A DNA stretch of 38,296 nt from Cytophagales bacterium (GTDB lineage Bacteria > Bacteroidota > Bacteroidia > Cytophagales > Thermoflexibacteraceae): assembly GCA_013298985.1 (NCBI GenBank), contig JAAFJS010000027.1, forward strand, positions 1 through 38,296, read 5' to 3'. Position numbers and translations under genes: made by a program. This document shows, piece by piece, positions 16,857-29,565 of the stretch. How positions within the stretch are numbered: position 1 is the stretch's first letter; every line of letters begins with the position of its first letter. Below the pieces are notes generated by a model. The model saw nothing but the letters and a program-made list of their open reading frames with translations, ran no database searches and had not been told where the DNA came from.

Positions 16857-16889
16857 AAACCTGTCAGGTTTTCGAGACCTGACAGGTTT
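16857..16889 (+). terminator. Hairpin after odhB, also a REP-like repeat
   Basis: Perfect 13 bp arms (AAACCTGTCAGGT at 16857-16869 and ACCTGACAGGTTT at 16877-16889) with a 7-nt loop, 8 bp after the odhB stop. It is followed by only one extra T before ACAG. The arm sequence shares CTGTCAGGTTTT with the inverted repeats at 28662 and 28902. Confidence 0.65.
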
Positions 16890-28546: not shown

Positions 28547-28661
28547 GAAAAATTAATACAAAACACTGATAAACAATGTTTTATGAAATAATTATACTGT
28601 AAACTAATTTTGTATTTTACTTAAAATATTATTAGAGGTACAAACTGTTTTGTAGAAAAAA

Positions 28662-28902
28662 GCTGTCAGGTTTTGTACATTCGTGCTACAAGGAGTTATT
28701 AATTTGTATGTATTAAAGTCCTGTTAAGGACTTAATATTGGTAGCAAAATATTCCTTCAAAACAATCCAACCTCCGTTAGGAGTTTAATGTTATTCAACT
28801 CCTAACGGAGTTGTTACCTGTTTTTAAATCTACTCTACTACCAATATTTAACACCTAACGGTGTATAATAATTTAAGGCACGAATGTAGAAAACCTGACA
28901 GC
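28662..28902. repeat. Nested palindromic element B with 25 bp terminal inverted repeats
   Basis: Terminal arms 28662-28686 and 28878-28902 match at 24 of 25 positions when one is inverted (start GCTGTCAGGTTTT, end ACATTCGTGC). Inside are four hairpins: 28718-28731 (stem GTCCT/AGGAC, loop GTTA), 28772-28783 (CTCC/GGAG, loop GTTA), 28797-28812 (AACTCC/GGAGTT, loop TAAC) and 28851-28864 (ACACC/GGTGT, loop TAAC). Centres are 53, 27 and 53 bp apart. AATATTGGTAG (28734-28744) and CTACCAATATT (28838-28848) form a perfect nested inverted repeat. Same plan as the element at 2680-2839. Confidence 0.88.
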
Positions 28903-28917
28903 AAGATTGTATTTTCG

Positions 28918-29565
28918 TTAAATAGATTTTTTTGCCAAATAGAAATCAACCATTTCCAAATCGCTTTTTTCACGTGCTTCCAGTTCGTCTAAGGTTTTGG
29001 GAGCAGGAACGATTACTTTGTCGCCTTCATTCCAGTTTAGCGGACAGGCAACTTTGTGTGTATCAACTGTTTGCAAAGCCTTCAGTGTGCGCTTAATTTC
29101 GTGCATATTGCGCCCTACATTTAGCGGATAGTACATAATGAGGCGGATTTTCAGATTGGGGTCTATGAAAAATACGGCTCTGACAGCCGCAGTTTCGCTT
29201 TCGCCAGGCTGAATCATGCCATAAAGTTTGGAAACTTTCATGTCCACATCTGCCACCAAAGGGAAGCGCATCATCACGCCCAAATTCTTGTTTACGTTGC
29301 TGACCCACGCGATATGAGAGTGAATACTATCTACGCTAACACCCATCAGCTTGGTATTCTGGCTTTTAAAAAACTCGTCTTCCATGGCAAAGCCCGAAAG
29401 CTCAGTGGTGCAAACAGGCGTAAAATCGGCAGGGTGCGAGAACAAAATGAGCCAGCTACCCTTGGCATAGTCAGATAGTTTGATTTTACCATGCGTGCTA
29501 TTTGCCTCAAAATCAGGAGCATTATCGCCAATTCTTGGCATCATGTTTACTTGTGTGTTTTCCAT
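28918..29565 (-). CDS. Prx6-type peroxiredoxin
   Basis: Thiol peroxidase that reduces hydrogen peroxide and organic peroxides; cytoplasmic, 215 residues. The peroxidatic centre is HPADFTPVCTTEL with Cys52. Conserved RFPLVADVDMKVSKLYGM and RAVFFIDPNLKIRLIMYYPLNVGRNM follow (the Arg of the active site is in the latter block), and the long C-terminal segment with CPLNWNEGDKVIVPAPKT is diagnostic of the Prx6 subfamily rather than AhpC. One more Cys occurs in HKVACPLNW near residue 178, so a resolving role cannot be excluded. No thioredoxin or OxyR gene is adjacent. Element B starts 16 bp beyond the stop codon. Confidence 0.93.
   Translation of the reverse strand: MENTQVNMMPRIGDNAPDFEANSTHGKIKLSDYAKGSWLILFSHPADFTPVCTTELSGFAMEDEFFKSQNTKLMGVSVDSIHSHIAWVSNVNKNLGVMMRFPLVADVDMKVSKLYGMIQPGESETAAVRAVFFIDPNLKIRLIMYYPLNVGRNMHEIKRTLKALQTVDTHKVACPLNWNEGDKVIVPAPKTLDELEAREKSDLEMVDFYLAKKSI

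Follow-up and report, generated by a model that had tools for sequence, protein, structure and literature searches.

A probable chimeric element of REP-like hairpins in a MITE, set within a split palindrome of a Cytophagales genome

The element found at 28662-28902 of the window (the whole 38,296-nucleotide stretch of DNA analysed here), between a peroxiredoxin and a gcvP gene, consists of three nested layers: a REP-like core, a MITE and a split palindrome. We consider it likely that this is a chimera, in which a REP-like core from a Y1 transposase locus became the cargo of a MITE, was moved by an IS630-type transposase and was inserted at the apex of a palindrome. The features on which this proposal is based are the following.

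28662-28674: left arm of an older 25-bp palindrome (GCTGTCAGGTTTT), 13 bp, split by the element
28675: apex base G, left copy; the same base stands at 28889
28676-28888: mobile unit, MITE-like, 213 bp, with TIRs at both ends
28676-28686, plus strand: left TIR TACATTCGTGC, 11 bp, matching the pattern TASAYTCGTGC
28716-28864: core layer, REP-like units (each a hairpin, 9 nt and GTAG) arranged as two inverted pairs with a spacing of about 50 bp
28716-28733, plus strand: hairpin A, the stem-loop of a REP unit, AAGTCCT-GTTA-AGGACTT with loop GTTA, read directly
28734-28744, plus strand: linker and GTAG tag of unit A (AATATTGGTAG), GTAG starting 9 nt past the 5-bp core stem
28772-28783, plus strand: hairpin B, CTCC-GTTA-GGAG with loop GTTA, its tag degenerate
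28796-28813, minus strand: hairpin C, CAACTCC-TAAC-GGAGTTG with loop TAAC, in the opposite orientation to A and B
28838-28850, minus strand: GTAG tag and linker of unit D (CTACCAATATTTA), from comparison with Y1-locus arrays and direct reading
28851-28864, minus strand: hairpin D, ACACC-TAAC-GGTGT with loop TAAC
28878-28888, minus strand: right TIR TACATTCGTGC, 11 bp
28889: apex base G, right copy, an apparent 1-bp duplication according to flanking-base comparison
28890-28902: right arm of the split palindrome (AAAACCTGACAGC), 13 bp, recognised from intact genome copies
16861-16885: the 25-bp target palindrome in unsplit form, also in the window (CTGTCAGGTTTTCGAGACCTGACAG)
2691-2828: further hairpins of this family, forming a second group within the window, GTCCC..GGGAC, tagged GTAG/CTAC

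Direct reading of the coordinates confirmed the symmetric layout of four hairpins with GTTA and TAAC loops that had been described in a sequence-only reading of this DNA, the hairpin centres (28724.5, 28777.5, 28804.5 and 28857.5) being spaced by exactly 53, 27 and 53 bp. The nested 11-bp inverted repeat described there is present as well, formed by AATATTGGTAG (28734-28744) and CTACCAATATT (28838-28848). Folded as single-stranded DNA, the segment reaches -63.4 kcal/mol versus -22.1 +/- 3.5 kcal/mol for shuffled sequences (z -11.7), and none of 200 shuffles folded as well.

The mobile unit with its 11-bp TIRs is not restricted to the window. In the host genome, the end pattern TASAYTCGTGC matched 29 times versus 5 times for a control pattern, and homologues of 221-222 bp with the same ends were found on three contigs (C347, C318 and C30). 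Three classes of TIR-bounded elements can be told apart in the host by their palindromic cargo, the ends being the same: four hairpins in class 1 (213-222 bp), hairpins resembling those beside the Y1 gene L035 in class 2 (111 or 125 bp), and a single long hairpin in class 3 (about 80-100 bp). Because the same ends enclose different cargo, we interpret the 213-bp unit as a MITE with REP cargo; it is short, multicopy, bounded by TIRs and devoid of a transposase, with an apparent target duplication of 1 bp. All 12 distinct elements that lie in non-coding DNA and have both ends carry an identical base next to the left and the right end, which is not so for two TIR pairs that arose by chance within coding sequence. 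Elements of a high-copy family in G009, which represents another genus of the host's family, are bounded by related ends; the inner end motif had 77 matches there, many of them at contig edges. A 14-bp insert with CAATTCCATTG was seen inside the hairpins of L002, L003, L004, L010, L015 and L030 and of the class-2 elements L220 and L229; its presence in class-1 and class-2 hairpins explains the 111- versus 125-bp forms. Furthermore, one host contig (C2, 41449-42217; L009, L012 and L013) carries three tandem four-hairpin copies with a period of about 290 bp and flanks in common.

The 25-bp terminal repeats noted in the earlier reading exist, with matches at 24 of 25 positions and a G/G pair (28675/28889) as the sole mismatch, but they are not one repeat: each is composed of a 13-bp palindrome arm, an apex base and the 11-bp TIR. 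We rejected a single outer TIR of 25 bp, since the arms vary between copies and match intact palindromes. The intact target palindrome CTGTCAGGT..ACCTGACAG occurs nine times in the host genome, always with 25 bp, and a reversed control of the pattern had no match there. The copy on C347 splits another palindrome, which has intact copies of its own, while L003, L004 and a class-2 element (C5:6633) split REP-type hairpins themselves. REP palindromes also serve as insertion sites for IS1397.

In the nine class-1 copies, flanks were palindromic beyond permutation (p = 1.1e-4), and the flanking base was identical in eight. For 22 complete copies in G009, the summed flank match was 209 versus 121 expected, and 17 had an identical flanking base versus 6.6 expected; neither value was attained in 20000 permutations, flank palindromy being weak in some of these copies. 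The copies in these permutation tests are not completely independent, as some share target palindrome families. A 1.2-Mb sample of G009 contained 17 intact target-family palindromes, of which 14 had an apex of one base, three an apex of two bases and none an N-TA-N apex; arms common to L279 and L307, and to L289 and L293, were each counted once in this tally, and a shorter arm from L300, offset from its apex, was left out. The prevalence of one-base apices at intact sites speaks for apex insertion accompanied by duplication of 1 bp.

The alternative that bears most directly on these data is a standard IS630 MITE with TA duplication, whose palindromic context would reflect either the abundance of intergenic palindromes or a preference for N-TA-N loops. 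The ends do start and finish with TA, one copy in G005 (L339) fits CCTT-TA-AAGG, and canonical IS630/Tc1 elements, including ISY100, duplicate TA and not one base (PMC2170065). Such an element, however, predicts empty sites of the form arm-N-TA-N-arm, which the apices of the intact G009 relatives do not have, so that duplication of TA is disfavoured relative to that of 1 bp; matched flanks are also far more palindromic than permuted ones. We regard the standard explanation as unlikely. According to our proposal of apex insertion, the transposase would insert at the apex of existing palindromes and duplicate the apex base, the insertion-site pattern being observed and the enzymology deduced from it; in the window, such an event would have split the 25-bp palindrome between peroxiredoxin and gcvP. 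Insertion at the apex keeps the target arms paired and makes the hairpin longer, whereby repeated rounds would build up nested symmetry.

The mobiliser of the 213-bp unit is likely an IS630-type DDE transposase, an assignment made from a C-terminal fragment in the draft genome G009 (330 contigs). In five G009 copies with these ends, which are of the type TAGTGTCGTGC, an open frame runs out to the end (...IPNFFKHPKLGFYNNL*) and is cut by the contig ends. The typed distant relatives of its 45-amino acid C-terminal tail, among 390 genomes of the order, are the C-termini of IS630/DDE_3 transposases. In G005, these C-terminal codons recur in an internally deleted remnant whose two ends are exact copies of TACATTCGTGC. 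Transposase sequence adjoining the TIRs thus comprises C-terminal fragments only: a DDE_3 search of the host draft genome (383 contigs) gave four matches, none with the window's TIRs, no intact transposase with these TIRs was found in that draft, and a plasmid search with the transposase C-terminus had no match. The congener G002 has a high-copy IS630-like element, the starts of many of its contigs (C21, C24, C38, C42, C52 and C95) lying inside the same DDE_3 transposase; the window's TIR was not found beside this gene in the stretches fetched. Taken together, the TIRs, the duplication of one flanking base and the transposase fragments next to the ends suggest movement by a DDE transposase of the IS630 type, not by Y1. 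Based on the ends that it has in common with transposase fragments in related genomes, the MITE would have been moved in trans, after the REP-like units had become cargo between the 11-bp TIRs TACATTCGTGC.

Eight Y1_Tnp genes were detected in the host genome. Hairpin/tag units like those of the window flank three of them (L031, L032 and L033), which are divergent copies, each beside these hairpins and with no boundaries seen in common; L032, the one closest to the window's units, is interrupted by an in-frame stop. Three others are flanked by different palindrome families. Several Y1 types with palindrome families of their own thus coexist in one genome: L034 (C239), L035 (C112) and L036 (C95), the families being listed as CCGTTTTAACGG; GCCTTTTAAGGC with CCCCTCGCTTTAGCGGGGG; and AATTTGTAATT-type. 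We extended the comparison to 63 homologues (identity at least 44%) from other genomes, mostly Bacteroidota. The density of short hairpins was 6.68 per kb within 500 bp of the gene versus 1.12 per kb far away, and at 59 of the 63 loci hairpins surround the gene (at least 2 per kb). Y1 genes accompanied by the same hairpins, for which a search had been suggested, do exist. The distance between neighbouring hairpins is 46-56 bp for 161 of the 295 pairs near a gene but for 4 of the 104 far ones, and a minor peak lies at about 23-30 bp. This period of about 50 bp is absent around far Y1 relatives (36-39% identity).

On the gene-ward side, GTAG began 7-10 nt past the hairpin in 76 of 78 cases (flanks pooled, in inverted orientation), and the linker ahead of it is roughly G-A-A-A-T-R-T-T-K; exact GTAG is present at only 29 of the 63 loci. 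A strict count of hairpin-N8..10-GTAG in a 0.78-Mb genome sample gave 25 matches, 21 of them at a distance of exactly 9 nt, the total being only mildly above, about twice, that of the reversed sequence (13). In the window, unit A (GTCCT-GTTA-AGGAC-TTAATATTG-GTAG) and unit D, read on the minus strand (ACACC-GTTA-GGTGT-TAAATATTG-GTAG), agree with the unit consensus of the Y1 loci, and the tag of unit A is placed as in the unit arrays near Y1 genes. The 53/27/53 spacing would thus amount to two array units facing two inverted units, as expected of a Y1 locus from which the gene is absent. The core of the window would accordingly correspond to the flanking arrays of such a locus, of subclass 1.2, minus the gene, its units having probably been amplified by Y1/HUH enzymes that act on hairpins in single-stranded form. 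In the Y1-flanking arrays of two Flavobacterium loci (L106 and L107), a second, longer hairpin CAACGGGTTTCAACCCGTTG directly follows each GTAG-tagged hairpin.

The Y1 proteins match the signature of TnpA_Y1 subclass 1.2, with a Y1_Tnp domain, HUH, Y---Q--HH and about 150 amino acids. Among the 63 homologues, Y---Q--HH is found in 61 and DH[VILF]H in 62, at a mean length of 150 amino acids, in line with the DH[IV]H, WQ and Y---Q--HH motifs, length and mostly Bacteroidetes distribution of this subclass. L031 and L033 score 35-37 bits with the RAYT model NCBIfam NF047646, below its cut-off of 80 bits, whereas the Y1 proteins exceed the cut-off of the NCBIfam IS200 model; the nearest solved structures are transposases of this kind. 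Subclass 1.2 has been tabulated with "no" REP and described as generally lacking IS hairpins (Quentin et al. 2018, PMC6006769), in contrast to the hairpins clustered round the gene at 59 of our 63 loci. The REP search of that study was confined to stems of 7 bp or more with GT[AG]G no further than 2 nt from the 5' foot (PMC6006769), and would therefore have missed hairpin-N9-GTAG units. The subclass thus gains an apparent substrate system, having been described as without one, and its role becomes directly testable.

Like the REP, REPIN and BIME systems associated with TnpA_REP (RAYT), the units described here are short GTAG-tagged palindromes, dispersed and in inverted pairs, whose arrays adjoin a Y1/HUH transposase gene in a REPtron-like manner. 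They differ in their tag, which follows the hairpin on the 3' side at a distance of about 9 nt where the known systems have it 0-2 nt from the 5' foot, in their short stems (core 5-7) and regular period of about 50 bp, and in a subclass-1.2, IS200-scoring transposase in place of the class 2 enzyme of RAYT systems. As tag position and core stems depart from the canonical definition (a GT[AG]G guide that precedes the stem by 0-2 nt on the 5' side, and a basal stem of 7 or longer), we call the units REP-like and not canonical REPs; judged by their sequence organisation, they may nevertheless work like REPs, through an enzymatic step of the Y1 type.

These likenesses raise the question whether the whole 213-241 bp, outer repeats included, could be a REPIN/BIME-like unit copied by a Y1 transposase, which is close to what the sequence-only reading proposed. 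Hairpin units are indeed common to the element and the Y1 loci, and four-hairpin cores without TIRs exist (L020, L187 and L188). Identical ends, however, bound unrelated cargo, and the outer arms vary by copy and match separate intact palindromes. That one base is identical on either side of the element is likewise unexpected, as IS200/IS605 Y1 elements are not known to duplicate their target. We consider such a unit improbable as an account of the whole. What holds of the earlier proposal is a non-autonomous, structured REP-like family with covarying stems, whose hairpins flank Y1/HUH genes; it fits the core layer (28716-28864) only and does not extend to the movement of the 213-bp unit, for which we favour the DDE transposase.

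With IS630/Tc1-mariner MITEs, the mobile unit shares short TIRs, TA ends, its non-autonomous nature, presumed mobilisation in trans and, for its putative transposase, DDE_3 relatives; it is set apart by REP cargo, by apex insertion and by a duplication that apparently comprises 1 bp and lies outside the terminal TA. Another MITE with a GTAG REP inside is QMITE2 of Coxiella burnetii (PMC5896051); it has direct repeats of 7-11 bp and no reported apex targeting, and its REP is itself the target of IS1111. In IS1111 (PMC5896051) and ISPpu9 (PMC8450116) the insertion target is a palindrome as well; these are autonomous ISs directed to one REP family, whereas many unrelated palindromes are targeted here. 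As far as we found in the open-licence literature, hairpin-tip insertion with a one-base duplication is undescribed, although the IS630 papers of Tenzen (1990, 1991) may describe a TA-in-palindrome preference. If apex insertion is real, cruciform or hairpin loops would be sensed as structure, and the growth of nested, symmetric palindromic elements would be explained. Our results suggest that two unrelated chemistries feed one repeat, with single-strand multiplication by Y1 and spread as cargo by a DDE transposase. We lean, by a small degree, towards the broader combination: an IS630-lineage system that recognises the apices of many palindromes, duplicates only the apex base and carries the REPs of several Y1 systems, together with an undescribed hairpin-N9-GTAG REP system, of about 50-bp period, of Bacteroidota subclass-1.2 Y1.

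A BLAST search of the host genome (6.06 Mb, 383 contigs) gave 47 matches to the element, about ten of them near full length, and 11 were found in G002, so the element is not a single-copy feature. Across 14 aligned copies, 93.5% of stem cells pair versus 86.6% in shuffles; stems have hence changed with pairing largely kept. Ten pairs were altered on both sides versus 4.6 in shuffles, and the covariation score was 0.232 versus 0.111. None of 500 shuffles attained these values and a slid partner register abolished the signal, which bears out the compensatory stem change inferred earlier from the four hairpins of the window. Whole Watson-Crick swaps account for 28 cells versus 5 with one-sided (G-U) changes, which fits selection or copying at the level of DNA structure better. 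A structured RNA or transcription terminator regulating peroxiredoxin or gcvP, the former being an alternative in the sequence-only reading, is very improbable: the element ends 16 bp past the peroxiredoxin stop codon with TTTTTT after the outer stem on that strand, but copies lie at many unrelated genome places, no Rfam match and, in a standard terminator scan, no terminator-like site were found, and base-pair swaps prevail over G-U steps. Integron attC sites and CRISPR-like repeats were considered from the layout only, with nothing in their favour.

The split palindrome (region 28656-28674 and 28890-28918) lies 16 bp past the peroxiredoxin stop codon, with TTTTTT next on that strand; it may have been the terminator of this gene, the element having inserted in its loop. 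The neighbouring gcvP protein, scanned against viral contigs, retrieved gcvP relatives only. Elsewhere in the window, tandem 7-bp repeats (CATAACT/CATAATT) lie in intergenic DNA at 546-732.
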